In this document: positions 1,207 to 49,100 of the stretch, piece by piece
How positions within the stretch are numbered: the first letter of the stretch is position 1
Layout of the letters: each line of letters opens with the position of its first letter
From: Paratrimastix pyriformis
Taxonomy: Eukaryota > Preaxostyla > Paratrimastigidae
Direction: 5' to 3'
Length of the DNA stretch: 64,000 nt
NCBI GenBank assembly: GCA_027972325.1
Contig: JAPMOS010000033.1
Span: forward strand, 124,001 to 188,000
The notes under the pieces: generated by a model
Told to the model about the DNA's origin: nothing
The model's database searches: none
What the model saw: only the letters and a program-made list of their open reading frames with translations
Translations under genes and position numbers: made by a program

Positions 1207-2657
1207 CTATAAGGAAGCGTTGGGGTGATGGAAAGAAAGACGCGACAACAGAGAAGTCTCCTCCCCTTCCGGCGGGCCCTCTTCGTTGGGGGCATCAACA
1301 AAGACCGCGCTTGCACTTCCGGGCGGGGGAGCCTGTGGGGCGGAATGGGCTCCGATGATGAGCGATGACACCACCGTTGCGTTCGTCCCGTCGTTGGGCG
1401 GCGAAACGGCGAAGTGGTCCGACCGAATGGGGGGTGGGAGAGGCTGGGAGGCAGGCCCGCCGGATGGCTGCTGGGGCTGTAATGGGGGGTGGTGGTCGGC
1501 GTAGTTGAGGTTGAAGAGGGGATCGTTCACCAGCTGGGCCACCGATGGTCGGGCTTGGGGGTCCACTGCGAGGCACCGGTGGACGAGGGCATCCTGGATG
1601 GAGAGAAAGCAATTAGACTGCGAGTCCGCACGCGTGGAGTCGGGGGGGGGGGGGGGGGGGGGGGGGGCAGACGGACCAGTTCCTGGGTGATCGCATCGAA
1701 GATGAGCGACCCCTTGGCCTTGTATGTGCTGAAATCGAGATCATCGGATGAACACTCCTTCCAAGGATAGCCGTGCCAAATCATGGCCACCAACATCACT
1801 CCCAATGCCCAGGTGTCAGCTTTCAAGGGGACAATGGGCCGCTGCAAGCCGAAGACTTCAGGCGCCAAAAGGTGTGGCGACCCGCGACTCTCGCAAAGTA
1901 GAGAGCCAGTCGATGGCAGCGAGAAACAGTAATCAATCAAAGCCAGGCTCACAGTCGGAAAAGTACCTTTGTACAGAATGTTTTCAAGCTTGAGGTCGAG
2001 ATGGAAGACGGCATTGTGCGCTTGTTGTACCAATTTCGCAACGCGCTTCCAAAGGTCCAGGCGCCAGGATATGGGAGAATCGGGGTGGTTGTTGAGCAAC
2101 TGGAGGAGGTCACCATCCCAGGGTTCATACCCAATCGAAACGAATGTGCTGTCGGTAAATTCGGGACTGTGAAATGGTCGTGGTTGACCGAATTTGGCCC
2201 AACAAGCCACGCACAGGCAATCCTCATTCGAAACCCTTCTTCGGGCCTTGAAGCATCCCAGTTTGATCAGGGCCTCTAACTCCGCCAGGGCGGCTTTTCT
2301 GTCCACAAAAACTTTGATCACAACTCGTTCTTGGCCCGTTGAAAACCGAGCAACGGCACCGTCATGTCCCGAGTCCAATTCCGAGCAGATAACGAGGTTT
2401 TCGAAATAGTTATTGTCAGGTTGGTTGAGAGGAAGAAGCTCGCGCAATTTGAGATAGAAAGGGTCGCGTAGTGTCATAACGCAGAGCGAAATTTCTGGTG
2501 AATTTTTGCGAAGGTCATAAATTGGGTGATGCTGGCAGAGAGCGGCGAGAGACAATTTCAGGCAGCTCGGAATTTGAGGCCGGATGAGGTCGAGGGTGAG
2601 TTCGGAGTAAACCCTCAGGCACTGAAAGGACGAAAATAAACAACGCAACAGTTCCAT
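1207..2657 (-). CDS. Protein kinase-like protein, 455 aa, one intron
   Basis: Probable Ser/Thr-type protein kinase. Exons 2657-1677 and 1593-1207; the 82-nt intron (1676-1594, GTCCGT...CCAG, holding a sense poly-C run) is phase 0, and its removal joins the kinase core to the subdomain XI segment DALVHRCLAVDPQARPSV. Motifs in order: a glycine-rich stretch SGHDGAVARF, the lysine of VVIKVF, catalytic loop HLDLKLENIL, metal-binding loop IDYCFS, activation-segment end APEVF, and DTWALGVML. The HRD is HLD and the DFG is DYC: the catalytic Asp, Asn and metal-binding Asp are kept but the Phe and Gly are replaced, so activity is uncertain. The roughly 100-residue N-terminus and the Pro-rich C-terminal 90 residues have no recognised domain. 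I cannot assign a kinase family. Base composition is lower in GC than downstream genes. Confidence 0.8.
1594..1676 (-). other. Kinase intron with poly-C tract
   Basis: Starts GTCCGT and ends CATCCAG on the minus strand. It contains an uninterrupted run of about 26 G on the plus strand (1642-1667), which is poly-C in the transcript. Confidence 0.8.
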
Positions 2658-2677
2658 GTTCTTCCGGCCTCATCGCC

Positions 2678-7642: not shown

Positions 7643-7683
<41 letters not shown>

Positions 7684-11826: not shown

Positions 11827-11937
11827 CCAGCTGATCCGCATCGACATGATCCGTGAAAACAGCCGCACCGCAGCCGAGCAACCGACAAGGGAAGGGAAAG
11901 GGAGGGAGGGATGGGCAGAGGGGAATGGTGGCGGGGG

Positions 11938-14258: not shown

Positions 14259-15240
14259 ATGCAGAACTATGTGGTGACCGCACACAAGCCAACTGCTGTG
14301 ACAGCTAGTCTTTTGGGAAATTTCACAGGCCCAAACGACCAGAATCTGATTCTAGCGTCTGCATTCTTCTCTCCTTCTCGCACGCACGTATAACATCTCC
14401 GGGTTGCGCCCAACGCGAATAGAAAATGTACCCATATTGAAATTTTCATGGTCTCACAACAAGGGATTCAGCCGTTCCTGGACATTCCCATCAACGGCAA
14501 AATCGCGGTGATGCAATTCTTCCGACCCCAGGGCGAGAATCAGGATCTCCTTTTCTTCACCACGGAGAAGTATAAATTTACCCTTCTCGAATTCCATCGG
14601 CCCACCTGCCAGCTTCGCACCCGCGCCTGTGGTGACATCCACGATCGCATCGGCCGCCCGACCGGTTCGTTTCCCCTCATCTCAGCTATCTGAACAACTC
14701 GCTATGTCTGAACACCTGCATAGAGATGGGCCAGCTGGGCAGCATCGACCCGCAGCACCGGATGATCTGCCTGCACCTGTACGACGGGCTGCTGAAGATC
14801 ATCCCCGTCCACGGGAGCCGCCTCAGCGAGGCCTTCAACGTCCGGCTGGAGGAGCTGCGCGTGGTGGACATGTGCTTCCTGGACGGGTGCCCCGCCCCCA
14901 CCCTGGCCATCCTCTACGAGGACGCCAAGGAGTGCCGTCACATCAAGGTCCGCCCTGCCCGACGTTGGGCCCTCGCACCGCTCAACCGCCGCCGCCTCTG
15001 CCTGCGGGGTTTCTGTGTGGCCGAACGGGGCGCAGTCGTACGTGATCGACGCGGAGGAGAAGGAACTCACCCAGGCCCAGCTGGTCGGCACCAAGATCGA
15101 GAAGGGCTCCTCCCTGCTTGTCCCCCTTCCTGCCCCCTACGGTCCGGTCCCCCCCCCCCCCCCCCCCCCCCCCTTCGCCCGCCCTCCACTCCGTCCGATC
15201 GTTTGGGCCCTTCGCAACTGACCGCCCTGCTGACCTTCGA

Positions 15241-15274
<34 letters not shown>

Positions 15275-18200
15275 ATCAGGGTGGCGTGGTGGCCCTGGGG
15301 AAGACCATCATCAGCTACTACCCGCCTCAGGGCGCCCAGACCAAGTCGATTGCCATCCGGGGCAGCTCGTTCAAGGCGTGGGGCCGTGTGGACCCGCTCC
15401 GCTACCTGGTGGGGGACATCTGGGGCAACCTGTCCCTGCTCCAGCTCCAGCTGGCCTCCGACGCCCCCGCCGCCGTGGCCACTGCCGGGCCTGCACCCAA
15501 CGCTGGCCGCGGGATCGAATCGCTCACGATCGCTTTCCTGGGCAAGGTCGGGACCTCACCCTCAGCCCTCGGCAGGCGGTCGGGCAGCGGGTTCCTCCAG
15601 CAGCGCCCTTCCTCTTCTGCTCCTCTGAATGTGGGTCTCGGTCGCCCCATGCCGCGCAGACCTCGATCCCGTCGACCCTGACGTACATCGACAAGGGGGT
15701 GGCCTACGTGGGGTCCGCCATGGGCGACGCCCAGGTCGTCCGGCTGAGCAACAACCCCGAGCAGGGTCCGCCTGCCCCCGCCCGCCCGCCCGCCCGCCGA
15801 CCCGCCGACCCGGCCTACCGGCCTACCGGCCTACCCGCCCATGCTCGCACTCATCAGCTCCCCTTCTCGGCACCCTCACCCGGCCCACTGCGCCCTCGCC
15901 CACTCGCCCTCCGCGGGCCGCAGGGAGCAACGTGACCGTCCTGGAGTCCTTCACCAACCTGGCGCCCATCCTGGACCTGGCCCTGGTCGACCTCGACAGG
16001 CAAGGCCAGGTCCGCGCCCCCATCTCGCCCCTCCGCCGAGCGATGACCTCACCCGCCACCCACCACCCGCCACCCGCCGGGGCGTGCCGCCGTGCAGAAC
16101 CAGATCATCACCTGCAGCGGGGGCTTCAAGGACGGCTCACTGCGCATCATCCGGACCGGGATCGGCATCAACGAGGAGGCCTCCATCGAGGCCTCGGGCA
16201 TCAAGGGTCCGCCCGCAGGCCCCCGCCTGTCGGTTGCTGTGGCGGCGCGCGATGGAAGGCCAGCCGGGGCTCATTCGGGGGGCGCCTCCTTGGGGTGGGG
16301 TGGCTGGGGGCGTGCAGGGATGTGGGCGCTGCGTGCCCACGAGGGCGACACGTACGACAAGTACCTGGTGCAGTCCTTCATCGAGGAGACCCGCGTCATG
16401 GGCATCGAGGGCGAGGAGTTCGGCGAGGTCCGCCACGGGCCCGCTGTTCTTGCCCTGTGGTTGCACCCTTACCGCTGGGTTGGCGGGTTGCCACCCATTT
16501 GGCGGGTTGTCTTCGCTGGCTGACTGGCGCCTTGCACCGGGCCACCATCGGGTCGTGGCAGGTGGAGCTCCCCGGCCTGGACAGCGCCGTGCCCACCCTG
16601 AATTGCGCCAACGTCCAGTTCGACCAGTACGTCCAAGTCTGGCCCGCCCGCCGCCCTGCCCCCTGCCCCTGCCCCTGCACGGGTCATGTCCTTCGCCTGC
16701 CTCGGCGGCTTCCTCACTCGGCTCATGTTCGTGGGCTCAATGGCCTGATCCGGGTGGGGGCAGGTGACCCAACGGGCGGTGCGGCTGATCGCCGCGGGGA
16801 CGCTGCAGCTGGCCAGGGAGTGGCTCCCGCCCCAGGGCCTCCGCATCTCCACCGCCGCCGTCACGCCCTCCCAGGTCTGCGCCCTGCCGTCCGCCCCGCC
16901 CTCGGTTGCTGGCTGTGGGCTCCTTGGGCGCGGCGGGAAGAAGAAGAAGAAGAAGAAGAAGAAGAAGGGGCTGGTCGTGTGCTTGCCCGGCGCCGCACAT
17001 ACTGCTTGGCGGGCTGTCTTCAGCTCTCTGGTTTCCATTTGCCCCTGCCTGCCCCTTTCTGTCTCGGCCCGCCCTGCAGATTGTCGTGGCCACCTCTGGC
17101 GGGCACCTCGTTTCGATTGCCGTCGCCCTGGGTGAGCTGCGCGAAGATGGGTCTGCCCCGCCCCGGGTCGCCCCCCATCGCCCTCACACTGTCCTTCGGG
17201 CTGCAGGCACATGTCCATGGGGGCCGAGGTGGCCTGCCTGGACCTGGGTGTTTGCGCTGCCCCTGCGGGCGGCCCCTCGGTGCCGGTCACGGCGAGCAGC
17301 GGGGCCGAGCCGATGGCCCTCGAGGGCGCCGCGTCCCGGGCCCAGCCCCCAGCCGGCCCTGCGCGCTTCCTGGCGACGGGCATGTGGGACGGCACCGTGC
17401 GGCTGCTGGCCATGCCCGCCCTCAACGAGGTGGCCCGCCGGGTGCTGGGCGCCGGTCCGGCCCCTCCCCCCATTTCCTCCCCTCCTCTCCCTCCCTCCTC
17501 CCCCTCGGGGCCGCTCACGCGTGGTTCTGCCCCGGCTGCTGGCTGGACCGCAGAGGTCATCCCGCGGTCGCTGCTGCTGCAGCGGATGGAGGGCATCGAG
17601 TACCTCCTGTGCGGCCTGGGCGACGGCCACCTGGCGACCTTCCTCTTCGACCCGGTCCGCCCCCACGGCCCACCCGCCCGGCCCGCCTGGCCGCCCCCCC
17701 GTCAGCCCATCACGTCCCCCCGGACGGAAGCCCGCACTCATTCGGTTCTTCGGTTTGCCTTCCCCGCCCTCGGCTTCCTCCCCGATGCCATGCCATGCCA
17801 TACGATGCCATGCCATGCCATGCCATGCCATACGATGCCATGCCATGCCATGCGACGCAGGAGCACGCGGCCCTGACGGACCCCAAGCGGCTGCTGCTGG
17901 CCACCCACCCGGTGACCCTGCGCCGGTTCGCCAGCAACGGGGCGAGCCACGTCTTCGCGGCCTCGGACCGGCCCACGGTCATCTCATCCACAAACCGCAA
18001 GCTCTTCTACAGCAACGTCAACGTCAAGGTCCCCGCCGCCCCCGCAGCCCACCCCGCCAAAGCCACGCCCACTTGCGCACCCCGTCCGATGGCATGGCGC
18101 CCCCCTCGCCTGACATGCCCTCACTCTCTGTTTCGGCTTGCACCTGGTGGGCCGGCGACGCCCCCGTGATGCCCCTGCTCGCCCGTCGGCGGGGGCGCAG

Positions 18201-29300: not shown

Positions 29301-32300
29301 GAGGCGCACCAGGTGCTCGGGGGCCGTGACCTTGTCCAGCGAGGCCAGGCAGAGGCCCTCGTAGACCCGGGAGAGGTCGCGCAGGTTGAAGATGTAGTGG
29401 AACTTGGACGGGGTCGCGGGCAGCTGCTGGACGACGTGCTGGTAGAGGTCCAGCGTGGCCGCGGTCAGGGGCCGGGCCACGGCCCGCACCGGGTCGGGGA
29501 AGACCTCCAGGTGGGCCGTGAGGATGCTCTCGTAGATGCGGGTCAGCGAGGTGTGCGAGGGGAAGGTGATGTTGAACACCGAGAACTTGCTCGTGAACCG
29601 GACGTCGACCTTCTGCCGCCCGCCGCCCGGCGGGGCCATGGCCGCCAGGAACTGGGCCCCCTCGTACCGGTGGAAGGTCAGGTCCTGGCGCCCGTAGAGG
29701 CCGCCCTTGTCGAGGAGCAGCTTGAGCAGGGCGATGGGCTGCTGGGTCTCCTCGGGGTCGGCCTGGGGCATGTTGAGGTCGTCGATGAAGCAGATCAGCC
29801 GCTTGTTGGCCTTGGGCCGGTAGACGTTCATCACCCGGTTGTCCAGGTTGGCGTCCAGGGTGGCCTGCACCTGGCGGCTGGTGGTCCGGTTGGAGAAGTT
29901 CATGTTGAGCGTGTTGTACTGCTCGGGGGGGCAGTGGGCCGGCTTGAGGAAGTTCTGGATGGTGACCGTCTTGGCGGTGCCCGTGTCGCCCACGAAGAGC
30001 ACCGGCTGGCGCTGCGGGACGAGCCGCTCCAGGAGCCACGTCGAGCGGACCGTGTCCACGGTGGGCACGAGGATGTTGCAGAAGCGCCCGTCGGGGGGCG
30101 GCTGGTAGGGGCCCACGACCGACTCCCAGGCGGCCCAGCGCTGGTTGGGCATGTCGAAGAAGTAGTCGTACAGGGTGGGCAGCACGCCGGGCAGCTGGTT
30201 GAGGCCGACGGTCAGGTCGGGGGTGGTGATGACGGTCAGGTCGGCCAGCTTCTTGAGGAACCCGTCGAAGAGCACCCGCGACTCGTCCACCAGCAGCGCG
30301 CCCAGCGACCAGACCGCCAGGAAGACGAAGACCATCTCCATGAGGGACGGGTCCAGCAGGGGGGTCTCCTTGGGCACCAGGCACTGGTACAGCGTGCAGA
30401 ACTGGGTGACCAGGTTCAGGGCCGAGGCCGGGATGACCTGCCGCAGCCGCTGGGCCACGGGCTGGTCGTCGACCAGGCCGTCGATGATGTACGACAGGCA
30501 GGGCGGGAAGTACTTCTTGTAGAGCACCTTCAGCAGCTCGGCCTCCTCGGACTTCTCCCCGGGCACGGGGGCCCGCTCGGCGGCCCACTTCATGAAGTAC
30601 GGCTCGTAGCCGAGGTCCTTGGGGTCGACGTAGACCATGCCGCACCGGGAGACCGTGGCCGGGGAGGCGTAGAACAGGTTGGCCACCTCGAAGAGCAGCG
30701 CACACTGGGGGTACCGGAGCACGATACGGTCCCGGTTGGGCAGGGTCAGCAGCCGGTTGTCGTCCATGACCGAGTTCATGTTCTCCACCCAGTGGGCGTC
30801 GACGTCCCCGTCGAAGAGCATGTACCGCCGGTCGGTGGGCCGCTCCAGGGGGCTGTTGTTGATCTCGCGGAAGATCTTCGAGAGCAGCCCGTCGGTCCAC
30901 TCCATGGTCTCCTTGTCGGCCCACCCGTAGAGCTCGTCGATGGTGATGGCCTTGGGGTTGAGCACGATCAGCTGGGTCTTGTAGCCCAGCCGGGTCTGCG
31001 CCTCGGCCAGCGCGTTGAGGACGACCGTCTTGCCGCCCCCCGAGGGCCCCACCACCATGGTCGTGTGGCGGGTGTTCATCGTGTCGTACAGCTGGATGAC
31101 CTTGTCCTGCTGCACCGTGACCGGGTGGTAGCGCTCCTGGGCCAGGGCCCGCTCGACGGCCTCGTTGAGCTCGGGGTAGCGCTGCTTGGGGCAGTCCAGC
31201 CCGGGGAAGAGGTCCTGGATGAGGCCCTGGAAGAGGGGCACGTCCTCGTAGATGAACTTGGGCATGTTCATGTCCCGCAGGGCCCGCATCAGGACGGCCT
31301 CCTCGGGCAGGTCGGGGGCGGCCCGCTTCAGGGAGCCGGCCATGGTCAGGACGGACTTCAGGGCGCGCAGCTGGAAGTCGTAGTGGCGCTGCTGGGAGAG
31401 CTGCCCCTTGGCCAGCTTGTAGAGGACGGTCATCTTCTTGGCCAGCACCCGGGCCGTGTCGAAGCCCTCCGAGAAGAGCATGATCTCGCAGATCTGCAGC
31501 AGGTCGGGCACCACCATCACAACCGGCCTGCCCGAGGAGCAGCAGCAGCAGCAGCAGCCGGCAGCACGGCAGCGGCAGCCAGAGGACAACAATGAGTGAG
31601 CAGGGGCGCGCGCGGAAGGGTGAGTGGGCAGGCGGGAGCGGGAGGAAGAGGAGGGGGCGGACCGGAAGAGGGCCTTGAGGTTATCAGGAAGCTCGGAGCG
31701 GCCCGCGTAGCCGGGGTTCATGGTCATGAAGATGCCCACCTTGCTGTCGAGCTTGTAGTCGGCCGGCCCGTCCAGCTTGAACTGCTGGAACCCGATGGCC
31801 AGGGCCGTCTGGATCTTCTTGACCCACCCCGAGATGACCGACATGACCTGCACCCGGACACAGGGCCGACCCGGCGATGAGGGTGAGGGTGAGGGGTGCC
31901 ATGGAGCAGGACCTGGCCATCCAGCGCATGGCGGAGGGTGGCGGAGTGGGCGGGGCAGGCGGCAGGGGGGGTGGGCGTGGCGGAGCAGCATGGGAGGACC
32001 TCGGGCTGGATGCGGTTGAACTCATCGAAGCAGCCCCAGGCGCCCGACTCGCAGAGGCCGATCAGCAGGGACGAGAAGGACAGCGCGTTGAGGCCCTCCT
32101 GGCAGTTGAACACCACGCAGTGCAGGGCCATGGCCTTGGCAAGGTCCTTGACCGTCTCGGTCTTGCCCGTGCCCGCAGGGCCGGCCGGCGAGCCGCCGTA
32201 GCGCATGGTGAGGGCCTGGGTGAGGGTCATGTAGCAGCGGTCCGTCAGCGGGGTGATCACCAGCCGGTCCCGCAGCCCGATGTACTCGTAGCCGTACCCG

Positions 32301-35300
32301 AAGCTGCCCGTGCACTGGCGCAGCACAACCTCGTCCTGCGGGCGGCGGGAAGGGCGGGCGGACAAGGACAGGGGGGATGCGCTCAGGAAAAATCCTGTGA
32401 CAGGAGGGCGGGGCGGTGCACAGGAGGTGCACAAGTGGGGGTGGGGTGGGGTGGGGTGGGCATGCGACGACGGACGGCTGCCTTGTCGAAGTAGAAGCGC
32501 AGTTGGGACTCCCAGTCGAACTCGCGCGCGTCGAGGATGGAGTCCCGCACGAAGCGCGAGACGATGTCCCGGGCGTGGACGTCCATGATGATCATGGTGC
32601 GGGTCTTGTTGCGCAGGGCCCGGTCGAGGGGGCGCCGCATGGCGGCCACCAGGTCGCGGATCTGGTCGGTCAGCTTGGCGGCCAGCTCCTTCATGGCCTG
32701 CTTGTTGCCCGCCCGCACCTGGCGGAAGACGTCCTCCACGTACCAGGTCCACCACACCTGCGAGCCCACGATGCCGCACTGGCCGAGGCACTGCTCGATC
32801 CACCGGGTGCGCTCGGCCTGGGGGTACTGGAAGATGGCCTTCTTGACCAGCTGCCGCAGGGTGCGCCGCATCTCGGCCTCGACGTTGGTCATCCAAACCT
32901 CGACCGCCCCCTCGGCCAGCACCTGGGCGCACGGACCCAACGGACAGACAGACAGTAGGCATGAGTCGGGCAAGCAGGGCGAGTTGGGCGGCAGCAGCAC
33001 CTCACGACGGGTGGGCAGAGGGGTGGGCCGAGGGGTGGGCGATGCGGGGGACGGGGGGGCGCCGACCTCGCCGGCGAAGTCGTAGGCCTCGTCCTCGTCG
33101 GACTCCATGGCCGAGATGGCGCGGGCCTTGGCTCCGGTCCCGAAGCGGATCGACTTGCAGTTCTCGAAGAGGTTGGACAGGTGCTTCTTGATGCCCGAGG
33201 GCTCGGGGCTGCCCAGGATCTGCAGCAGGTCCTCCTCGGAGATGAAGTAGAACCGGGGGAAGGCCATCCGCTTGCCCTCGAGGTACTCCGAGAGGCCCTT
33301 CTGGCACTTGTCGAGGCCCTGCAGCAGCTTGGTCAGCATGGCCAGCCGCTGGTCGGTGCACTGGTCCACCACGACGGGGTTCTTGGCCGTCTCGGCCATG
33401 ATGGAGACCCGGAAGGTCTTGTCGATGTCCATGAAGTCCTTGGTCTGCTCGGGCAGCCGGTTGCGGATGTCCTCGGACTTCAGGAAGATGTTCTCCAGGT
33501 AGAGCCACTTGAGCTGGGTCGCCAGCCACTGCTCGGTGACGGCCTGGATGCGGGAGAGCTTCTGCTCCCACTCGTCGACCCGCTCCAGGAAGGGCTTGAT
33601 GTACCGCGAGGCCTGCATGCCCTGCAGGGCCTGCATGCCCACCTCCAGCTTGGCCTTGACGTCCTCGATGCCCTTCAGGGTGTAGCCCCGCTCGCCCCGG
33701 CTGACCATCTCGAAGCGCTGCGTCCGCCAGGTGGCCTCGATCCCGTCGATCTCCTTCTCGATGACCTGCTCGCGGACCGCACCCAGGGTGATGTCCCCGA
33801 TCTCGGCCTTGTACTTGGACAGGTCCATGTCTGCATCCCACCACCCCCGGCACCACCCACCCACCCCAGAGAGGAGCCAACGGATGAGCCGGGAAGGCGG
33901 GAGGCGGGGGAGGGGCCGGACCGAAGAGGGACTTGAGGGTGAAGTTCTTCTTGTCGGAGAGGTCGAACCGGCAGCCGGTCTTGGCGAAGAGCTCCTCCCA
34001 GTGGCGGGGCCGGAGGGCCGGGTTGGTGAGGTCGTCGATGAGGGGCAGCGACTCGGCGAAGCCCTCGATGCGGGCCCCCACCAGCCGGTAGGGGGCCAGC
34101 TTGCGGAGGGGCTCGGGCAGGTGCTTGAGGCGGAGCAGGAAGACCCGGACGCCCTCCTGCAGGACGCCCAGCTTGAGCTCGCCGAAGAGCATGCCGCTCC
34201 ACTCGTCGATGGCCCCCTTGACGTCCGCGTAGAGGTCGTAGATCTTGGCGTAGCCCGCCAGCTGCTGTTCCATCTCGTAGTAGGCCGGGTAGCCCGTGAC
34301 GGGCAGGTTGAAGAGCTGCTCGGCGTGCATCAGCTCCTCGCGGCTCTTCGACAGCTGGCCCAGCTGCTCCTGGTACTGGCGGATCGTCTCCACCGCTGCG
34401 GCCCGCCACCGAACCACACCGAACGCCCCGCGCACGTTAGCAGAGGAGGGGGCGGGGCATGGGACGGGGGAGGCGTGGGGCTGGGGGCTGGGGGCTGGGG
34501 GCTGGGGGCTGGGGGCTGGGGGCTGGGGGCTGGGCAGGAGGGGCCAAGCGGACCCTTGTCCATGTTGGCGGTCTCCGAGGTCTGCTCGGCCATGACCCGC
34601 TTGAAGTCCTCCGCCAGCACGTTCATCCGCTGGCTGAACTGGGCGACGTCCTGCCGGGTGACCTCGGTGAACTTGCTCTTGACCACCTTCAGGCCCTCGT
34701 CCACCCGCAGCGCCTCGGCCATCAGGGCCTTCCAGCGGCCCTCGAGGGCCAGCGCCTCGCGGAGCTCGTGGTCGGGCATCTCGCGGTACCCGTACCGAGC
34801 CAGGAGTCGGTAGCGCTCCTGCAGGCGCATGCAGCACCCACCACCCCCATGCCCCAATCAGGAAGGAGACCGACGATGATGATGAGGGGCAGGGGCCATG
34901 CCACCCACGCCACCCGAGCCCAGCCCGCCAGCCCCGAACGAGAGGGCCGGCCGGCGAACGGGCCATGATGTCGGCGTACTGGGCCTCGACGTCCATCGAC
35001 ATGGCCCCGATCCGCTCGATGACGTGCAGCACGAACTTGAGGTCCTCCAGGGTGGCCGGGCTCTTGTGCAGGTCCTCCTCCAGCTCGCGCATCCGCTTCT
35101 GCAGCTCCTGCATGGGGCCCTGGGCCGTCCGGTAGAGCTTCTCCGCTGGGGGACACATCATCGGCCGGATGGTGCGATGCGGGTCAGCAACACGGCCCAG
35201 AGGGGGGGAGGGGCGTGGGGGGGGCCGGGGAGGCGGACCGATCTGGCGGATGAGGTCGGCGGCCTCGCGCTGGAGGGCCTGCTTGAGGGGCGCCATGTTG

Positions 35301-35749
35301 AGCAGCACAAAGTCCACCTCGCGCTCGTCTGGAGGCATCCCACCACCACCCCCACCCCACCCCACCCCAGGATGGATCGACGGACATGAGGGGTGTGCGG
35401 GGGTGTGGCCGAGGCGCGACGGACCGGGGTCGGAGCGGAACTTCTTGAGGAGGCGCCTGTATGCGGCCATCTGGGCCTCGAAGTGGGCCGCCGTGACGGG
35501 GATGGGCCGCTCCTGGCCGGCGGGGTCGAGCTGCTTCTGGTCGCAGGTCGCGTCGAGCTGCTTCATCCGGCCCCGGTCGCCCGCCAGCAGCTTGGGGATC
35601 TTGTCGTTCTTGCGGTACTGCCGGTCCAGCAGCCCCGCCAGCCGGCCCACCGTCCGGACCACGGCGCTCTCCGGGATGCGGGTCATCTCCCGATACGCGG
35701 CGATTTCCTGGGGGGCGGGCCAGCCAGAGGCAGGCAAAGAGGGGCGGGG

Positions 35750-35794
<45 letters not shown>

Positions 35795-38749
35795 CCGTTA
35801 ATCGGATCAGACGGAGGGCAGGGTGGGGCGGGGGCGAGTGCAGCTGTGGGCGGGGGCGGGGGGGCCGACCTTGGCGTATGTGTAGAGGGAGCCGTCGTGG
35901 GAGGATGGGCACTCGATGCAGGTGCCGTTCTGCCAGCGGACGAACTTGGCGGCCGTGTCGAAGAGGCTGTCCAGGAAGAGCTTCAGCTTCTTGACCACCT
36001 CCTGGTCGCCCGGCGCCAGCACTGCCAGGGAGGGGGCGGGGGGAGGGAAGGGCCGGTCAGTCAACAAGGGCCGTCCCGAGGGGCGGAGGGGCGGGCGGGC
36101 GGCACCGGGGCAGCAGGGGGACGGGCGGGCTGCGGACCGATGTTGGACATCTGCAGGGTGGCGTCCACCCGGAAGAGGAGGGCCCGCCGGGGCCCGTCGG
36201 GTGTGGGGACGGCCTGCATGAGGAGCCTGTGGAAGGCCGAGATGTTGGCCCGGATGCAGCGCACCAGGGCCTGCAGGGTCTGGCGCTCCCAGTAGAAGTA
36301 GTACGGGGCCATGCGCCGGTCGCGGCCCGTGGGGACGGCGTCGGCGACGATGCCCTCGATCTGGTGCAGCTTGATGGGCACCGTGTGGCGGTACTCGCGC
36401 ACAAGCTCGGCCACCGCCTCGGCCCGGTGCTTCTCGAGGGTCTCGTAGAAGGTGTCCAGGCTCACCTCGCACCGCGGCACGTGCTTCCCCTTGAACTCTG
36501 CGCCCACCAGCCGGCCGCCAGATGATGATGGCCGGAGTCCGGGGGGGGGGGGGGGGGGGGGGGGGGCATGGCGGGGGGAGCAAGCGGGGCGGGGAGTGGG
36601 TGCCAGACCGGCGGTCGCCTGGCACGAGTGGGCGTAGTGGAAGTGGGCCCGGTCGGCCTCGGCGGACTCCCGGTCGCGGACCCGGAGGGGCGAGCCCTCC
36701 CGACGGCCGCCCTCGGCCCCCCCGGGGCCTCCGTAGTGCACCCGGCCGCCCTTCCAGGGGCCCCGGGCCGCCACCAGGTCGCCGTCGTCGGCACCCTCGG
36801 CGGCCCGGGTCGTGGGCGGCACCGAAACCAGAGCAGCCGCGAGCGGGTGCCCCTCAGGCAGCCTGCATCCAGCCCAGCCCCAAGCCCGGCAGCGAGCAGT
36901 GGCCAAACGAGATTGGGAAACGAGCACTCGAACGGGGCGGGTGCGGACCCTGCGGGCAGCTTGGAGCTCGGGGCGCCAGGGCCGGGGCCAACCAGCGATG
37001 AGGCCGCTGGGGCGGGGGCCTCGGCGGGCGGCTCGTACCGGACCAGCACCGCGTTGGCGATTCTGCCCCCCATCATCATCATCCCCCACCCATCATCATG
37101 CCCCCATCATCCCCCACCCGCGGGGCGGCCCGTGTGAGGCGGATGGTCAGGCAGCCCCCCGGGGCTGGGCGGCCGACCAGCGGCGGTGGGGCATGGATGG
37201 TGTGCATGGATGGATCTGGGGGGCATGGATGGTGCGCATGGACGGGCGGGGCGGGCGGACTTGGCGATGACGGCCTGGATCATGTTGGCGTTGTCGTGGA
37301 TGTGGTCGACGGCCGACTGGAAGGCCGAGATGGCCGCCGTGGCCTGGCGGACGTACTCGGGGATGGAGAGCGAGTTCCAGTTGTACGTGTCCACCCCGGG
37401 GACGATGACCTCCCACAGGCGGCGCAGCTGGTCGCGGAGCATGTCCTTCTCGAAGGGCCGCAGCGAGTCCAGGGCCCCGTGGAAGGCGGCCGCCATCTGG
37501 TCGAGCTGCTCGCACTCCTCGTGGTACTTCTGCTCCTGCAGGGTCACGTCGAGGGCGATCGGGTGCACCTCGCAGCCCAGCCGGTGCAGGTAGCGGGTCT
37601 CCCGGATGAGGGCCGTCAGGGCCGGGTCGAAGTTGACCCGCAGCCGGAGCTGCTTCAGGTCGGGCACCTCGGGCAGGCCCCGCTCGGCCCCGAAGATGTC
37701 CCGCAGGCGGGGCTTGGGGGCCCCGCTCAGGTAGGGCATCAGGATCATCCGCGAGAGGGCCGGCATGGCGTCCCGCGAGACGGTCACCGTCCAGGCGCCC
37801 AGCCGCTGCTGCTGGTAGGTGCGGATCTGCTTGGCCACCGTCAGGAACTTGCGGCACACCTGCTCGTACGTGTCGCGCCACTTCTCCCGCTCCGGCAGGC
37901 CCGTCGGTCCCGTCGCCGCTGCGCCCACCACCCCCAACCAACCCCAGCAGGCCCCCACGGCATGCCCACAGCCACGGCGAGAAAGGTCAGCACCCTGGTC
38001 GCCTTCACGCGGGCCGGGCTGGGCATCGTGCGGGGCATCGTGCGGGACGGGACGGGACGGGACAAGGGCCGGGGACGGACGGCCGCTCTCTGCGAGGGCC
38101 TTGAACTTGAGCATGGGGGCCTTGATGCGGCGCAGGAGGGCCTTGGCCCAGCCGATGGCGCCCGCGACGGGGGGCTGGTTGTAGGTGCAGGGCGGGTTGG
38201 CCTGCTGGGCGAGGAAGGTCTTCTGGGCGGCGTCGAGGTCCTCGCTGTACTTGGTCAGGATCGACTCGATCTGGGCCGACATGACGTTCTTGATGCCCTG
38301 CGTGCTGTCGACCGACTTGAACTTGCGCACCAGCTCCAGGGCCCCCTCGGCCGACCGGAGCCGGGTGAAGCTGCGCCGGATGAAGTCGTGCACGCGGCTC
38401 TCGAGGGCCTTGTACTCGGCGTCGAAGGTCTGCTTGGCGGCCTTCCACTGGGCCGAGGTCTTCCCCGAGTGCTGCGCCAGGTGCTTGAACGGGTCCGAGT
38501 CCCGGATCGGCCGCAGCAGCTCGTGCACCTGCGCCCAGCCATCCACCCGTCCGTCCATTGAGGCGGTTAGGCTGGCCGTCTGGGGGGAGGGGCAAGGCGG
38601 GGCAAGGCGGGGCAAGGCGGGGCAAGGCGGGGCAAGGCGGGGCAAGGCGGGGCAAGGCGGGGCAAGGCGGGGCAAGGCGGGGCAAGGCGGGGCAAGGCAA
38701 GGGAAAGGAGGGCAGGGCAGCAGGGCAGGGAAGACAGGGCGCGTGGCGT

Positions 38750-38781
<32 letters not shown>

Positions 38782-40492
38782 TGCGGGCCTGGGCGTGGAG
38801 GGCGTCGATGCCCTCGGAGTCGCCCGTGACGAGCTTGAGCTCGGTGCCCAGGGCGGCGGTGAGGGTCTGCAACGGCGGCCATCTCGCGCAGCTCGACCAC
38901 CACCCCGGATGGCCTCCGACTTGACGAAGAGGTGCTTGTCGTGGTGGAACTCCCACCGCCGGTTCTCGCCGGCATTCTCGATCTGCTCGCGCGTGTCGAA
39001 GTAACTCTGCCCAGACGGGGGACGGATGACGGATGACGGATGGCATGGGGGGGGGGGGGGGGACAGAGGAGAAGGACACGGCCGATCAGGGACAGATCGC
39101 GCGGGGGGGGGGGGGGGGGGGGGGCACTGGGGGTACACGCAGGCGCGCGTGCGGGTGGTCGTTGGGGGACAGGGGCGTGGGGCGGGGGCACACTGGCGGT
39201 GGGGCGGGGCCGGGACCTTGTACCAGAGGGCGAGCATCTCCTCTGCGTCGGTCAGGCGGCGGGTGGCCTTCTTGAGGTCCATCGCGGCCGGGTCGAAGAT
39301 CTTCTGGACGGCCACCACCCCATGGTCGTCGCGCAGATCTCGTTGCCGATCCGCTGCAGAGGGCCGTGGGAGCAGGGCAGAATCAGCATTGCCCTCGAAA
39401 GGTGGGGGCATGGAGGCGGGCAGGGGGGGTTGGGGGGGGGGGGGGTGGGGTGGGTGGGGGGGGGGGGGGGGGGGCGACCTGGAGGAGGGTCCCCATGCGG
39501 TCGTCGGTGTTGTAGTGGCGCGAGATGGTCCACACCATGCGGATGGCCGTGAACATGGACGGCAGGGTGTCCTTGATGAGGCCCAGGTTCCCCTCGCCCT
39601 GCGGCCCCATCCGACCCATGCACGGCCCCACCATGCCCCCCACCCAAGCCGCAGTCACAGCCACCATCAGCACAATGGTTCGAGCGCTCCGAGTTCCGCC
39701 CAAAGGACGGAGGCGGGCTCTGGGGGGGGGGGGGGGGGGGGGGGGGTGCGGACGGTGGCCAGCTGGGGGGAGAGGTTGCGGAAGTGGCGCTCGAGGGTCT
39801 GCAGGAACTTGAGGTTGTCCCGGGCCTCGAGGTAGTCCTTGGTGAGGCTCTCGTAGGCCGTCACGAAGCTCTCCACGCTGCCCCGCTGGATCTGCTTGGT
39901 GACCAGCTCGCGCATCATCTGCACGTGGGGCAGGTTGAGCTGCTCGTACAGGGCTGAGAAGACGGTGCTCCGCTGCCGCCAGTACTCGATCTCGTCCAGC
40001 GGCCCCGGCCCGCGGGGCTGCTTGGCGTTCTCCTGCTCGGTGACCTCGCGCAGGACACGCTGCCAGTTCTCCATGGCGTTGGTGATTTGATCGAGCACCT
40101 TCGGGGGGGCGCGGCGGCAGAGGGGGGGACGGGGAGGGGTGAGAGAAACGCGGCAGGGCTGACGAACCTCAACATTGTCTGCATAATCCCGTGGGTCAGT
40201 GATGTGTAAGTCTGGGATCATAAGCTTGGATTCGGCAGTGACTTGCTGTAATACATGCGAAATCGTCTGTGCAAATTTGTCCAGATCTGGTTGGGAAACA
40301 AAGCCATGGGGAGGAGAGTGAATTTTCAGCGTGCCCAAGAAGTTCGGTGAGAAGCAGACAAGTCAGAAAGTCTGTGCGGAGTGGATTGATTTGTTGTTGC
40401 TGCTGGTGGCAGGCTGCCTTCCAGCTGTCTTCGAGAGACAAAAGAGTCTCATGGAGACTTTTAAGCTGCTCTGTGGACCGGGACTGATGCAT
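20346..40492 (-). CDS. Axonemal dynein heavy chain, inner-arm DNAH10-like, about 4,590 aa
   Basis: Microtubule motor of the flagellar axoneme. Forty exons: 40492-40360, 40286-40168, 40098-39754, 39598-39479, 39353-39217, 39006-38789, 38528-38081, 37918-37261, 37062-36949, 36862-36609, 36497-36138, 36021-35870, 35707-35425, 35328-35239, 35145-34940, 34818-34554, 34395-33922, 33830-33067, 32922-32476, 32335-32000, 31847-31663, 31527-28004, 27807-27713, 27610-27320, 27164-27009, 26818-26606, 26359-26179, 26031-25793, 25525-25207, 25008-24753, 24628-24476, 23891-23589, 23386-23205, 22992-22740, 22575-22354, 22177-21950, 21842-21375, 21171-20937, 20817-20689, 20558-20346. P-loops: AAA1 GPAGTGKT (about 32175) with [11 protein letters not shown]2 GPSGGGKT (31040), AAA3 GDTGTAKT (29980), AAA4 GYGGSGKQ (28930). 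The coiled-coil stalk spans exons 22-26. The C-terminus ([22 protein letters not shown]) resembles DNAH10, the inner-arm I1/f alpha chain; subtype about 50% sure. Exons 5, 6, 29 and 37 each need a 1-nt correction to stay in frame. Confidence 0.9.
21232..21362. repeat. (GGGGCA)n hexanucleotide array in a dynein intron
   Basis: About 20 copies in intron 21374-21172, following a pure G run at 21181-21206. The transcript carries the C-rich complement. Confidence 0.9.
22672..22732. repeat. 11-bp (GGGGCACACGA)n minisatellite in a dynein intron
   Basis: About five tandem copies immediately inside the GC-AG intron that starts at 22739. Confidence 0.9.
23058..23142. repeat. (GCGGT)n pentanucleotide array in a dynein intron
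   Basis: About 17 near-perfect copies in intron 23204-22993. Confidence 0.9.
23440..23575. repeat. (GGGGCGGCAG)-type minisatellite in a dynein intron
   Basis: Roughly ten copies of a 10-13-bp unit in intron 23588-23387. Confidence 0.85.
23892..24475 (-). other. Longest dynein intron, with an AT-rich core
   Basis: A 584-nt intron (GTCCGC...GGCAG, phase 0), far larger than its neighbours. Its centre (about 24000-24340) is AT-rich, like the promoter islands elsewhere in the window, and has no tandem repeats. No ORF or RNA gene is supported in it. Confidence 0.7.
25081..25190. repeat. (GGCA)n followed by (GGCGGGGT)n arrays in a dynein intron
   Basis: 4-bp then 8-bp tandem units inside intron 25206-25009. 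Confidence 0.85.
25622..25785. repeat. (GTGGCGGGGC)n and (GGGGC)n arrays in a dynein intron
   Basis: About ten copies of a 10-bp unit grading into a pure GGGGC array, inside GC-AG intron 25792-25526. Confidence 0.9.
26494..26550. repeat. (GGGCGA)n hexanucleotide array in a dynein intron
   Basis: About nine copies in intron 26605-26360. Confidence 0.85.
27917..27980. repeat. (GGGCT)n pentanucleotide array in a dynein intron
   Basis: About 13 copies in intron 28003-27808. Confidence 0.9.
34478..34535. repeat. (GGGGGCT)n array in a dynein intron
   Basis: About eight copies in intron 34553-34396. Confidence 0.85.
35748..35791. repeat. Long poly-G tract (about 40 nt) in a dynein intron
   Basis: Uninterrupted G on the plus strand, poly-C in the transcript, within intron 35869-35708. 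Confidence 0.9.
38588..38697. repeat. (GGGGCAAGGC)n 10-bp minisatellite in a dynein intron
   Basis: About 11 perfect copies, followed by a poly-G tract (38751-38780) that reaches almost to the GC 5' splice site of intron 38788-38529. Confidence 0.9.
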
Positions 40493-41414: not shown

Positions 41415-42655
41415 ATGAGTTCTGCTGTTGCTGTCGACATTTCAGATCTTGTCTGGCAATTTTTCGATTTGGTGAGCATTGAAAGTATCTGACGATGTGG
41501 ATGTGTAGGAATCCGCCTATCAGACCTTCCAAAAAAATGTGAAGGAGGTCGAATTGGATCTCCGTGAACGTAAGAAGGTTGTCCAATGTGAATCACCATA
41601 TCATTTAGCGCTCATGTTTTCATCGCACGTCACAGAAAGCGGCCGAGATCAAGAAACCACTCCGCTACATGAAAAACTCGGTGAGTATGATGCGGAACAT
41701 CCTTGATACCATGCGTGGCAAGCTCCCCCCAGGCGACGGCCATGTTATGAGCTGGAAAGCGGTTTGCTTTCTTCCGGGCTGCATGTCAATCACGATCACC
41801 CCTTCCCCCTCCAGAAAATCGACCAGTTGGATGCCACGTATAACAGGCTGAACGACCAGGTCAAGCAGTTTGAGGCTTCCACACGTCCCGGCGCCGCCGG
41901 CGTTCGCACGGGTGCCTCGGGAACCGGGCGGGGGCGCGGCACGCCCAAGACCCGCCGGGCGGGTGGGCCGGCCGGGGCGGATGATGGCGCCACTTCCACC
42001 GCAGATGCGGCCCCTGTCAGCTGTCTGCTGCCTGCGTCTTTTTTTTCGTTGCTCATCCGACCCGGGCTGCCCAGCCACCGAGATGGAGTACCTCCCCGAC
42101 TCGGCCAAGCTCGACGCGGGCCGGGCCATCGTCGCGGTCTGTCTGTCCCCGGTGCGGGCGACCCCCCGGCTCACCTCCCGATCTCCTCCGCGCGGTGCAG
42201 CGATCGGAGAAATCGCTGAACAACTCGATGGACATGATCAACGACGCCCTCCGAACGGGCGCCACGGCGGGGGCCCAGCTGGTGCGCCAGACCGAGCAGA
42301 TGGAGAACATCTCCTCCAAGCTGGACGAGATCAATGACGAGGTGACCCAGGCCAAGAAGTCCGGCTTGAGGGAGGCTTCCTGAGGTGAGGCGACAGCGAT
42401 GGGGGGGGGGGGGGGGGGGGGAAGCTTGTCTTCGGCGCCTTCTCACGATGCCATTTCCGGGCTGGGGTGGGGGCCAGGACGCTGCGGGCCATCTTCACCC
42501 GGCTGATGACGGACAAGATCCTGATCCTGCTGCTCTTCCTGGTCATTGCCGGCATCCTGGCCGTCATCATCATCTCCATCGTCCAGGGCGTCATGAACCG
42601 GGGCGGCAAGATCATCACCCCCACCGCCACCGCCACCCCCAAGGCGTGGTTCTGA
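41415..42655 (+). CDS. Qb-SNARE, NPSN-like, 281 aa
   Basis: Tail-anchored membrane-fusion protein. Exons 41415-41471, 41509-41569, 41640-41761, 41815-42022, 42075-42136, 42201-42358, 42478-42655; all phases agree. The SNARE motif is spread over exons 6-7 (LNNSMDMINDALRTG, QTEQMENISSKLDEINDEV), followed by RLMTDK and one C-terminal membrane segment (ILILLLFLVIAGILAVIII), then 24 luminal residues. QTEQ, the TDK before the membrane anchor and the overall length fit the novel-plant-SNARE (NPSN) Qb group, which also occurs in many protists; a Vti1-type Qb-SNARE is the alternative. The first two introns (37 and 70 nt) start GTGAGC and GTAAGA, the only conventional 5' splice sites seen in the window; later ones are GTTTGC, GTCTGC, GTCTGT, GTCCGG. 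The 3' site of intron 2 (CAGAAAG, 41639) was chosen by phase. Confidence 0.78.
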
Positions 42656-46100: not shown

Positions 46101-49100
46101 GGCCCCGTAGTAGCGCGGGCAGGGCGGGATGGCCCGGGCGGGCGCCGGCTGGGGGGGCCGGGCGAAGCTGGGCGGATGGCGCGACAGGAGCGCGAGCGGA
46201 TCCTGCGGGTGGCCCTGGCCGCACCCCCAGCACGGGGCCACCCACCTGCGGCCACCACACACCACCGCCACCCGCCCACACAGCCGCCCACACAGCCGCC
46301 CACACAGCCGCCCGCACGCCCGCCCACACAGCCAGAGAACAGCCCACGGTGGGGTGCTGGCCGCGTGGTGGCGTGGTGGCGGGGACGCGGCCCAGGGGCG
46401 GAGCGGAGCGTGAGGGGCTGGTCAGCCGGCGCGGGGCGGACTTGGGGGCGGGCGCCTGGGGGGCGGAGGGCCGTGCGGCTGGGCTGGGGCCGCACGTCTT
46501 GGCCCAGCGGTAGCGGAGCCAGCTGGCCAGCAGGCGGTCGTTGGGCCGCGCCTCGAGGAACTGGCCGTAGAGGGCCCCGTTGTGGGGGGTCGGGAAGATC
46601 CGCTCGAAGCCGCCCCGACGCGAGTACTGCGTCCCCGCCAGCCCGCCAGCAACCCCACCAACCCCAGCCCCCAATCCGTGTCAGTGCCAGCGAGCGCCCC
46701 GTGAGAGGGGCCGGGGGAGGGGAGTGGCTTCAGCAGGGGGGGGTGGGGATGTACGGGCCGACCTCCTCCTCGGAGAGGCGCAGCACGTGGCGCTCGATCT
46801 CGGAGAGGTGCCCCAGGGGCCCCGGGCCCGTGCCGGGGCTGTAGGGCGAGCCGCCCGCGGCCGGGCTGCCCGCGGGTGGGGGCGGGGACGGGTATGGGGC
46901 CGCCACGCCCTCCTCGGCCACGTCCCGGATGTGGCGGCTGGTGCAGGGCACGTGGCCCACAAGGTTGAACAGGTCTGCACAGCCGCAGCCGTGCCCAGGC
47001 AGGGCGTGAGGCGGGCATCAAGCAGCAACCAGGGGCAAGGTGGCGAGGGGCAGGGGGAGGGCGGGGTGGTGTGGGCAGGTGGGATGGGCACGGGGGGCGC
47101 CGACGGGCCGACGACGAGCTGCTCCTTGATGGCCTTGTCCAGGGGCGAGCTGCTGTGCAGCGAGGGGCTCGTGTTGACCTCCAGCAGCCACGGCCGCAGC
47201 TGCTCGTCCAGCAGCACCTGCACACCCGCGCGCCACCGCCACCGCCACCGCCACCGCCACCGCCACCGCCACCGCCGCCCCGCACAGGACATGAGTACAG
47301 CCCCAGGCACAGCCCCAGGCACAGCCCCAGCCCAAGCACCCGCGGCGGGGGCCCGAGGGGCGGCGGACATCGAAGCCGAGCAGCTCGTAGCAGACGGCGA
47401 TGGGCGGTGTGGCGCCGCCCTGGCCCTGACCGCCCGCGTGCAGCGGGCTGGGCGCCGGGTCGGCCGCGGGGCCCCAGAGGGGCGTTAGGGGGGTGGCCGG
47501 GGCCAACACCGAGCGGAGGGTCGTGGCGAGGGCCGGGGCCGCGGCGGCGAGGGTCTTGATGACCACGTCGGCGATCCGGTGCCAGACCACCCCGTCGTCG
47601 ATCCCCTGGGCCCGCAGGTAGCGGCGCAGGTGCTGGTGCGTCCTGCTCGCGGGGGGCGTGGCCACGGCCGAGATACAGACGCACAAACACAAACACAAAC
47701 ACGTCCGGATGGGGGCGTAAGGCATGGACGGCGTGACGAGGGCATGCCGGGGTGGGCCGTGAAGGTGGCCGCGGTGTCCGTGTGTGCCGTGGGGGCATCG
47801 TGCGGACCACTTGGAGCCGCCGCCCTCGTCGCCCAGCGAGCCGATGCCGGCCCGGCCCTTGTTGACCGAGTAGTTGGTCAGGTGGGCGTACCGGCTGTGG
47901 GTGGCCATCCCCCGGTAGCTGCAGCACCCCAGCACACACACACACAGACACACCCGGTCACCCGCACGCGACCGAGAATCCACTGTCGGGACCCGACGAG
48001 AGCGGGGAGGACGAGGGAGGGGTGGGAGGAGGCGGACCGCTTGGAGGCGAACCGGACGAGGCCGTCCCGGTACATGTACACCCGGAGCGGGTCGACCGAG
48101 GTCAGGGCCACGTAGACCCGCAGGTCGAACTTGTACCCGTCGATCAGGTAGGGCGCCGCCAGGTACTGCTGCACGACGGCCTTCTTGCCCGGGGGAACCT
48201 CCTCCGGGCTCCGGAGGACCTTGATCCCTGCGCCCCGACAGCCGTCCCGCCCGAGATGGGCAACGGGCAATCATGAGCGCTCAGAAAGGGGTGTCAGGAT
48301 GGGCAGGCGGTGGGGGCGGTGGGGGCGGTGGGGGCGGTGGGGCGGTGGGGGCGGTGGGGGCGGTGGGGGCGGTGGGGGCGGTGGGGGCGGTGGGGGCGGC
48401 GGGGGCGGCGGGGGCGGCGAGCAGACCCACCCCCCGGGCCCCGGCGACGGGCTTCATGATGAACGGGCCCGCGGCCGAGTCCCGATTCAGGAAGGTCTGG
48501 TCCCGAGGGAGGATGTACGTCTTCGGGAAAAACCCGAAATGCTACCGCGGGAAGGTCAGTGAGGCACGTGGGTGGGTCGTGGTGGTGACCTCAGGACCGA
48601 AGGTCCGCAACATCCTCGTGAGGTTGACCGCCAAATAGTCCTTGCGCCCCAACTCGTATGTCCCCGGTAAATGGTTCACCTTTTGATATGGTGAGAGGAG
48701 CCGATACGAGGTACGTTTGGGAGGACGGCCCCAAATGGAATGCCAAAGGTCGCCCTCTTTAACTAACTGAAAGCCAGCCCGTTTGAAGGCATTCCGAATG
48801 ACAATTGAAGACGGAGAGGCCAGCCTCATGACAAGGGGCACCTGCCTGTCCTGGCATCGGACAGGGTGCGGGTCTGCGTGAGAGAGCTATCATCAGATGG
48901 ACAACATCGAAGACGCAAACCATTATCGAGCGTGAAAAGAATGGTCGGATCGCTCTCAAGGAAAAGAGGGACGCGGCAGTACGGTGGATACTGAGCAGCC
49001 ACGGCTGACACACGCAAGCTGAACACAAAAATAGCCTGAAGAGCCTCTTGCCGGCAGACTATCTTTAGAAAAACAGTTGAATGTTGATTCTCTTTTCGGA

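Follow-up and report, generated by a model that had tools for sequence, protein, structure and literature searches.

A GTCYGY donor consensus and a matching change at the 5' end of U1 snRNA in the flagellate Paratrimastix pyriformis

Paratrimastix pyriformis is an anaerobic, free-living flagellate of the Preaxostyla (Metamonada) and a relative of the oxymonads. Here we analyzed the introns of a 64,000-nucleotide stretch of its genome (contig JAPMOS010000033.1, positions 124,001 to 188,000 of the forward strand; the window), together with introns on other contigs and the genes for the small nuclear RNAs (snRNAs) of the spliceosome. We found that the donor code of the major spliceosome has very probably moved in this organism from GTRAGT or GTATGT to GTCYGY, and that the U1 snRNA has moved with it. 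The changes in U1 are confined to the two nucleotides that face the altered donor positions, G6 facing +3 and A5 facing +4. Judging from the genome sequence, we are highly confident that this co-evolution of U1 and the 5' splice site is genuine.

Results

A pyrimidine follows GT at the donor sites

The genome searched was the P. pyriformis assembly GCA_027972325.1 (495 contigs, 56,060,509 bases). Introns were placed by a protein-to-genome spliced aligner that penalized ends other than GT/GC...AG and had no preference at positions +3 to +6. This gave 117 introns, 50 from two window genes and 67 from ten other contigs: 18 in DDB1, 32 in a DNAH10-type dynein heavy chain gene, 15 in Prp8 (contig C456) and 52 in dynein paralogs, which are spread over nine more contigs. 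An intron of the window dynein was accepted with at least 3 of 4 reference proteins in support, except for seven N-terminal ones accepted at 2 of 4, where the reference P0191 is short. Dynein-paralog candidates had to be supported by at least two references and to lack weak flanks; some of those excluded begin with other bases. Two introns without an AG end, both beginning GTCCGC, were left out. The 115 introns kept comprise 108 that begin with GT, from 12 genes on 11 contigs, and 7 that begin with GC. Ends of the GT-AG kind with a minority of GC-AG are those of U2-type introns; they were favoured by the aligner, and runs of the aligner free of splice signals agree on the DDB1 and Prp8 sites. 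With a human DDB1 query, such runs placed introns at 18 of 18 DDB1 sites, shifted by at most 8 bases, and made 4 extra short calls; with a plant Prp8 query, they did so at 15 of 15 Prp8 sites, again within 8 bases. Ab initio gene finding with splice signals left out recovered only 5 of 18 DDB1 and 14 of 32 dynein introns exactly and, being too inaccurate, was not used.

Among the 108 GT introns, position +3 is C in 105 and T in 3, and the purine of the GTRAGT consensus occurs in none. Position +4 is C in 78, T in 19, G in 7 and A in 4 (a pyrimidine in 97); +5 is G in 95, C in 11 and T in 2; +6 is C in 65, T in 24, G in 17 and A in 2. GTCCGC is the commonest of the 17 donor hexamers seen (39/108). 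These counts bear out a preliminary description of the window, which had read a pyrimidine at +3, C or T at +4 and G at +5, mostly as GTCCGC, and the pattern is the same inside and outside the window (+3 C in 44 of 46 and 61 of 62 donors, respectively). A purine at +3 is a consensus property of U2-type introns rather than a defining one, and the P. pyriformis case is a variant. G is favoured at -1 as well as at +5. All 19 introns without -1 G have +5 G, and all 13 without +5 G have -1 G; this is the familiar seesaw between the two positions, here non-significant (p = 0.12). GC-AG introns are frequent (7/115, four of them in the window dynein), with C at +3 in six of the seven and GCCCGY in four.

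Could this pattern reflect composition only, with C-rich intron 5' ends in a GC-rich genome, an uninformative C at +3 and a U1 that drifted neutrally? Intron interiors are 39% C, and the C:T ratio at +6 is what the composition of the individual introns predicts (p = 0.11). The internal GTs of the same introns, however, reject composition as the cause: a pyrimidine follows GT at 108 of 108 donors versus 550 of 961 internal GTs (p ~7e-27), and C follows it at 105 of 108 versus 295 of 961. The excess of G at +5, the persistence of the pattern in Prp8 and dynein paralogs outside the window, and the alteration of U1 at exactly the facing bases in all copies also speak against it, and we consider a compositional origin highly improbable. 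Genome-wide, AAGGTCYGY occurs 4,308 times versus 1,491 for the reversed pattern, which is a crude control.

It is scarcely credible, either, that these are introner copies, minor-spliceosome introns or non-spliceosomal elements rather than ordinary major-spliceosome introns. A U12-like snRNA is present, and seven intron pairs are locally similar, the longest over 283 nucleotides at 70%. But seven matching pairs (E 1e-4, plus strand only) are few among the 6,555 possible, and introners were rejected on this count. The 108 GT introns use 17 donor hexamers, not one of which is compatible with RTATCCTT, the donor motif of minor introns, and both the GT/GC-AG ends and the presence of U1, U2 and U6 point to the major spliceosome.

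Two further observations concern the intron 3' end and the minor spliceosome. In the last 60 bases of the 115 introns, CTCAC is found in 30, CTGAC in 14 and CTAAC in one; CTCAC and CTGAC, which occur more often toward the 3' end of the introns than in their 5' part, may be the branch site. The U12-like snRNA (L072:1501-1675 on contig C432, minus strand) scores 44.9 bits where the gathering score is 53, and its branch-recognition stretch is UAAUGAGUAAGGAAAAUA; its presence is a sign that this metamonad may possess a minor spliceosome.

U1 is changed at nucleotides 5 and 6, and U6 is not

Eight U1 genes were found, all beginning AUACAGACCUUG. As the canonical start is AUACUUACCUG (that of the family consensus is AUACUUACCUGG), nucleotides 5 and 6 are AG, not UU. 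The stretch that binds the 5' splice site is ACAGACC in all eight instead of ACUUACC. All eight align to the U1 family model from end to end (positions 1-166), with 50.8-60.2 bits and E values of 2e-10 to 4e-13. The family-model search used a permissive threshold (E 10); matches turned up in 9 of 14 control genomes at that setting as well, none of them above the cut-off. A 34-base pattern from the U1 body, with up to 3 mismatches allowed, returned the same eight loci genome-wide and no others. An exact pattern for canonical U1 had no match in the whole assembly, and pattern searches of the assembly found no second U1 type.

A promoter-like motif, CCCATAA, lies 58-60 nucleotides upstream of the initial AUAC in all eight U1 genes and in all eight U2 genes examined (of ten U2 matches), and a motif like it is also found upstream of the U6 genes. 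This near-fixed spacing makes the U1 genes and the 5' end assigned to U1 credible. The shared motif around CCCATAA (loci L005-L012, L047-L054 and L001-L004) usually has a run of T before it, and the AUAC with which both U1 and U2 begin is most often preceded by AATTC.

The preliminary description had predicted that U1, U6 or both should have co-evolved with the donors, and proposed to read the U1 5' end and the U6 ACAGA region. The prediction holds for U1, where a compensatory change faces +3 and +4 in 8 of 8 genes. U6 is unchanged: the ACAGA box is intact in four of four copies found, in the canonical form AUACAGAGAAGAUUAGC, and co-evolution of U6 is rejected. U2 gave ten matches, and the ordinary branch-recognition sequence GUGUAGUA is present in the four copies aligned. 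The U6 box and the U2 branch-recognition sequence are thus those of U2-type splicing (4 of 4 U6 copies; 4 of the 10 U2 matches aligned).

Changed U1 is predicted to pair better with the donors, except at +4

Next, we computed duplex energies (duplexfold) for the 115 donors. The change of U1 nucleotides 5-6 from UU to AG gives a stronger duplex at 110 of them, the mean going from -3.3 to -6.9 kcal/mol. Among the 16 possible dinucleotides AG ranks second and UU fifteenth. At nucleotide 6, G is the best of the four bases, indicating that this is the change that the introns demand. Positions -1 to +3 and +5 of the donors are complementary to the U1 of the species, and +4 and +6 are so in part. Watson-Crick pairing to the changed U1 accounts for +3 C and +5 G; it does not account for C over T at +4.

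Several observations weigh against the co-evolution of U1 and donors as we read it. The best U1 score, 60.2, does not reach the gathering score of Rfam (69.5). The best dinucleotide at nucleotides 5-6 is GG (-10.9 versus -6.9 for the genomic AG). In the simple model, P. pyriformis U1 hardly distinguishes a made-up canonical donor, CAG followed by GUAAGUAU (-6.7), from the commonest kind, CAG followed by GUCCGCCC (-7.0); only GUCUGUAU gives a far stronger duplex with it (-14.3). The U6 box pairs poorly with GUCCGCCC (+0.2), and with GUCUGUAU at -6.9. Finally, nucleotide 5 of U1 is A, yet C outnumbers T at +4 by 78 to 19, and it exceeds each intron's own C:T ratio (78 of 97 C/T sites versus 62.4 expected, p = 5e-4). 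The A at nucleotide 5 suits +4 U and not the commoner +4 C, which is the main point left unexplained. Possible reasons would be that an A-C mismatch is tolerated between two strong G-C pairs, that donors are kept from binding both U1 and U6 too tightly, that U opposite a methylated U6 A43 is avoided, or that an A in U1 is modified.

The last of these can be taken further. Were the A at U1 nucleotide 5 (and 3) modified so as to read C, for example to inosine, mature U1 would fit GTCCGC and not only GTCTGT. The order C > T > G > A is indeed shared by +4 and +6, and G gains more than 1 kcal/mol in the mean duplex at U1 nucleotides 3 and 5 only. On the other hand, +6 is also accounted for by composition, and an A opposite C would be tolerable as a mismatch or as a protonated wobble. 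To our knowledge, adenosine modification of this kind at U1 nucleotides 3 or 5 has no precedent, and we regard the explanation as quite improbable.

Splicing proteins and the weight of U1 pairing

It might also be U6, U5 and proteins (Prp8, SNRNP27K, U1-C) that do most of the donor selection, with U1 pairing secondary and U1 having followed a shift that they made. The failure of U1 or U6 pairing to account for +4 C would agree with this, as would the small difference that its own U1 makes between GUCCGCCC and GUAAGUAU in our simple model, and the genes for two proteins relevant here are present. A METTL16-like gene scores 64.5 bits for Pfam PF05971, which 5 of 14 prokaryote controls contain as well. 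Its product has the motif CNPPFFE, and its best PDB matches are U6 m6A43 methyltransferases (E 2e-11); a methyltransferase domain with an NPPF motif, and METTL16 as the closest of the solved structures, mark it as a putative METTL16. An SNRNP27-like gene retains the stretch RQYMNRK; its two introns, placed by eye and outside the 115, begin GTCTGC and GTCGGG.

The U1-C gene is on contig C68 (L071, near 1380-1760). Its three introns, also placed by eye and outside the 115, begin GTTCCG, GTCTGT and GTTTGT, with T at +3 in two. Another zf-U1 match, on contig C86, was rejected as U1-C because by eye it is WBP4-like; we take the protein to resemble WBP4. The zinc finger of U1-C has Trp where the human protein has the conserved basic Arg28. 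A human R28G,K29S double mutant does not enhance E complex, whereas Ala at residue 28 of yeast U1-C leaves growth unaffected, and in the human structure U1-C makes no base contacts and Arg28 lies near the backbone (PMC4383343). As this evidence is mixed, the Trp is not used as support. U1 pairing alone does not set the site (PMC11732430), in line with a secondary role for it. But both U1 substitutions face only +3 and +4, and predicted pairing goes up at 110 of 115 donors. A secondary role for U1 pairing is unlikely in our view.

Genes and introns of the window

Coordinates are listed in Table 1. Spliced alignment placed 18 introns in DDB1, the number given in the preliminary description, and 32 in the dynein under the support rule, where that description had 39. 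The assembled DDB1 protein matches P0001, an annotated P. pyriformis protein in NCBI, over its full length at 92%, the next matches being land plants at 49%. P0001 aligned back to the window (GT-AG favoured) gives 18 introns, 16 of them with identical donor and acceptor; it differs at the acceptor of intron 6 and at both ends of intron 4, and every donor begins GTC or GTT. Human DDB1 (GT-AG favoured) called 20 introns; two of them, 17250-17345 and 18549-18644, lie in sequence that is coding in P0001 and were for that reason not retained. No dynein named as from P. pyriformis is among the best 120 of 3,092 protein matches listed.

The preliminary description had also named the first two introns of a SNARE gene as exceptions, with GTGAGC and GTAAGA donors. 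The GTGAGC donor (41472) is doubtful, given a donor of consensus type, GTCTGG, at 41451. The former implies an intron of 37 nucleotides, shorter than all 115; with the latter it would have 58, the frame being unchanged. Elsewhere in the window, 2681-10490 on the minus strand is a long coding-like stretch of low complexity, very rich in proline, with trinucleotide and AGCAC repeats.

As for earlier work, the gene models of P. pyriformis were built with intron hints from RNA sequencing and curated training genes, and a term search of the main text of that genome paper found no mention of a splice-site consensus (PMC10703272). A 2005 report describes an Rpl7a intron of P. pyriformis, GT-AG and 172 nucleotides long, confirmed by expressed sequence tags (AY925011; PMC1201135).

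Table 1. Genes and introns placed in the window, in window positions
Feature	Positions	Strand	Intron start (...end)	Remarks
DDB1 gene	14259..19948	+		1,159-aa open frame after removal of 18 introns
DDB1 intron 1	14357..14422	+	GTCTGC...TAG	
DDB1 intron 2	14665..14723	+	GTTCGT...TAG	
DDB1 intron 3	14948..15035	+	GTCCGC...CAG	
DDB1 intron 4	15142..15280	+	GTCCGG	Ends ambiguous: donor 15142 GTCCGG (counted) or 15147 GTCCCC; +3 C both ways
DDB1 intron 5	15547..15659	+	GTCGGG...CAG	
DDB1 intron 6	15766..15923	+	GTCCGC...CAG	Other acceptor in P0001
DDB1 intron 7	16010..16097	+	GTCCGC...CAG	
DDB1 intron 8	16207..16317	+	GTCCGC...CAG	
DDB1 intron 9	16428..16561	+	GTCCGC...CAG	
DDB1 intron 10	16637..16763	+	GTCTGG...CAG	
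DDB1 intron 11	16875..17079	+	GTCTGC...CAG	
DDB1 intron 12	17151..17206	+	GTCTGC...CAG	
DDB1 intron 13	17455..17553	+	GTCCGG...CAG	
DDB1 intron 14	17655..17860	+	GTCCGC...CAG	
DDB1 intron 15	18029..18200	+	GTCCCC...CAG	
DDB1 intron 16	18990..19119	+	GTCCGC...CAG	
DDB1 intron 17	19253..19388	+	GTCCGC...CAG	
DDB1 intron 18	19648..19770	+	GTCCGT...CAG	
DNAH10-type dynein heavy chain gene	20349..40362 (approximate)	-		Homology
Dynein intron	40099..40167	-	GTTCGT	2/4 references (P0191, one of them, short)
Dynein intron	39304..39478	-	GTCGCC	2/4 references
Dynein intron	39007..39216	-	GTCCCG	3/4 references
Dynein intron	37063..37260	-	GTCCGC	2/4 references
Dynein intron	36022..36137	-	GTCCGC	2/4 references
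Dynein intron	35708..35869	-	GTCGGC	2/4 references
Dynein intron	35329..35424	-	GTCCGT	2/4 references
Dynein intron	35146..35238	-	GTCCGC	3/4 references
Dynein intron	34819..34963	-	GCCCGT (GC-AG)	2/4 references
Dynein intron	34396..34553	-	GTCCGC	3/4 references
Dynein intron	33831..33921	-	GTCCGG	4/4 references
Dynein intron	32923..33066	-	GTCGGC	4/4 references
Dynein intron	32336..32475	-	GTCCGT	4/4 references
Dynein intron	31848..31999	-	GTCCTC	4/4 references
Dynein intron	31528..31662	-	GTCCGC	4/4 references
Dynein intron	27808..28003	-	GTCCGC	4/4 references
Dynein intron	27611..27712	-	GTCCCC	3/4 references
Dynein intron	27165..27319	-	GTCGCC	4/4 references
Dynein intron	26819..27008	-	GCCCGC (GC-AG)	3/4 references
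Dynein intron	26360..26605	-	GTCCGT	4/4 references
Dynein intron	26032..26178	-	GTCCGC	4/4 references
Dynein intron	25526..25798	-	GCCCCC (GC-AG)	3/4 references
Dynein intron	25009..25206	-	GTCCGC	4/4 references
Dynein intron	24629..24752	-	GTCCGC	4/4 references
Dynein intron	23892..24475	-	GTCCGC	4/4 references; 584 nt, may hide missed exon
Dynein intron	23387..23588	-	GTCCGC	4/4 references
Dynein intron	22993..23204	-	GTCCGC	4/4 references
Dynein intron	22576..22739	-	GCCCGC (GC-AG)	4/4 references
Dynein intron	22178..22353	-	GTCCGC	4/4 references
Dynein intron	21843..21949	-	GTCCCC	3/4 references
Dynein intron	20818..20936	-	GTCCCC	4/4 references
Dynein intron	20559..20688	-	GTCAGC	3/4 references
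SNARE gene intron 1	41451..41508	+	GTCTGG	Alternative donor, 58 nt; inferred

Discussion

Canonical U2-type (major) donor recognition by U1 (GTRAGT with AUACUUACCUG) and the P. pyriformis system have in common the GT/GC-AG ends, a U1 that matches its family over the full length, the intact U6 ACAGA box and U2 branch-recognition sequence, and G favoured at -1 and +5. They differ in the C instead of a purine at +3 and in AG instead of UU at U1 nucleotides 5-6. Also related are the GUAUGU-like sites of Saccharomyces cerevisiae, in which +4 U forms a Watson-Crick pair with U6 ACAGA (PMC10581693). Introns of the oxymonad Streblomastix, from the same group as P. pyriformis, have A, U and G at +3 to +5 (PMC1501061), and Giardia has a U1 with ACUUAC, UAUGUU sites and a U-U pair as in yeast (PMC3510501). 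In these systems +3 is A, whereas in P. pyriformis +3 is C and U1 is changed. From the Streblomastix donors and the Giardia U1, the P. pyriformis state of U1 and donors therefore looks derived within its group, of which one Preaxostyla U1 has been read.

The Saccharomycotina offer a second comparison. Their switches from A to U at +4, which are associated with METTL16 and SNRNP27K, are also genome-wide shifts at positions handed from U1 to U6; in that study, U1 ACUUACC is invariant in the 236 genomes in which U1 was found (227 of 230, and 9 of 10 outgroups), U6 ACAGA is present in all 240, and A at U1 nucleotide 5 is named as a possible compensation for +4 U that was not found in those genomes (PMC10581693). 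P. pyriformis, by contrast, has the A at U1 nucleotide 5 and has kept METTL16-like and SNRNP27-like genes. Intron ends also deviate from the usual on a large scale in Fritillaria borealis (PMC13326754) and in diplonemids (PMC12621601). In F. borealis, however, the U1 5' end is canonical (PMC13326754). In the diplonemids examined U1 is well conserved, S. specki having an alternative U1 with a stretch of C beside the normal one, and for R. humris that report found no U1 (PMC12621601). In P. pyriformis, unlike these, the single U1 type found is itself changed. In the literature searched, which lay outside supplements and most subscription papers, we found no description of a change at U1 nucleotides 5-6 with matching introns.

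How might such a code work? U1 would bind the donor through AG/GU (U1 nucleotides 7-10), +3 C with G6 and +5 G with C4, and +4 and +6 would pair only if U. On handover to U6, +3 C would pair with G44 and +5 G with C42. AUAC-UU-A in canonical U1 and AUAC-AG-A in the U6 box differ at two nucleotides only, and because the difference is confined to those two, the change in U1 gives both snRNAs the identical heptamer AUACAGA. A GUCUGU donor would then match the two RNAs at positions +2 to +6. An ancestor with GUAUGU donors and a canonical U1 is likely. From there, U5A in U1 would repair the mismatch at +4 U, and U6G in U1, with A-to-C at +3, would turn a position of weak U6 contact into a Watson-Crick pair with both snRNAs; a +3 A or G touches U6 G44 only weakly (PMC11732430).

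Taken as a whole, the fuller proposal is tentative, and we would sooner expect some part of it to fail than all of it to hold. It states that U1 has become a remade copy of the U6 box (AUACAGA), that the ideal donor GUCUGU is read twice by one code and the compromise between U1 and U6 at +3 and +4 is gone, and that U1 A5 would be methylatable through a UACAGA core, with C at +4 and +6 read through modified adenosines of U1 and U6. UACAGA is the core that METTL16 methylates in U6.

If U1 and the donors have changed together, the dominant mature U1 5' end in P. pyriformis would be AUACAGACC and not AUACUUACC. As it has to serve every intron of a cell at once, the 5' end of U1 is generally taken to be fixed. 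An intron-bearing organism in which U1 and the introns changed together would amount to a natural suppressor experiment on the scale of a whole genome. Several questions would come within reach of a test: by what route a donor code shifts while avoiding lethal intermediates, how strongly U1 and U6 limit one another at +3 and +4, and what keeps METTL16-like and SNRNP27-like genes in a genome where +4 A is rare. There is a practical side too, as the annotation of such a genome would go wrong with gene finders built to expect GTRAGT.

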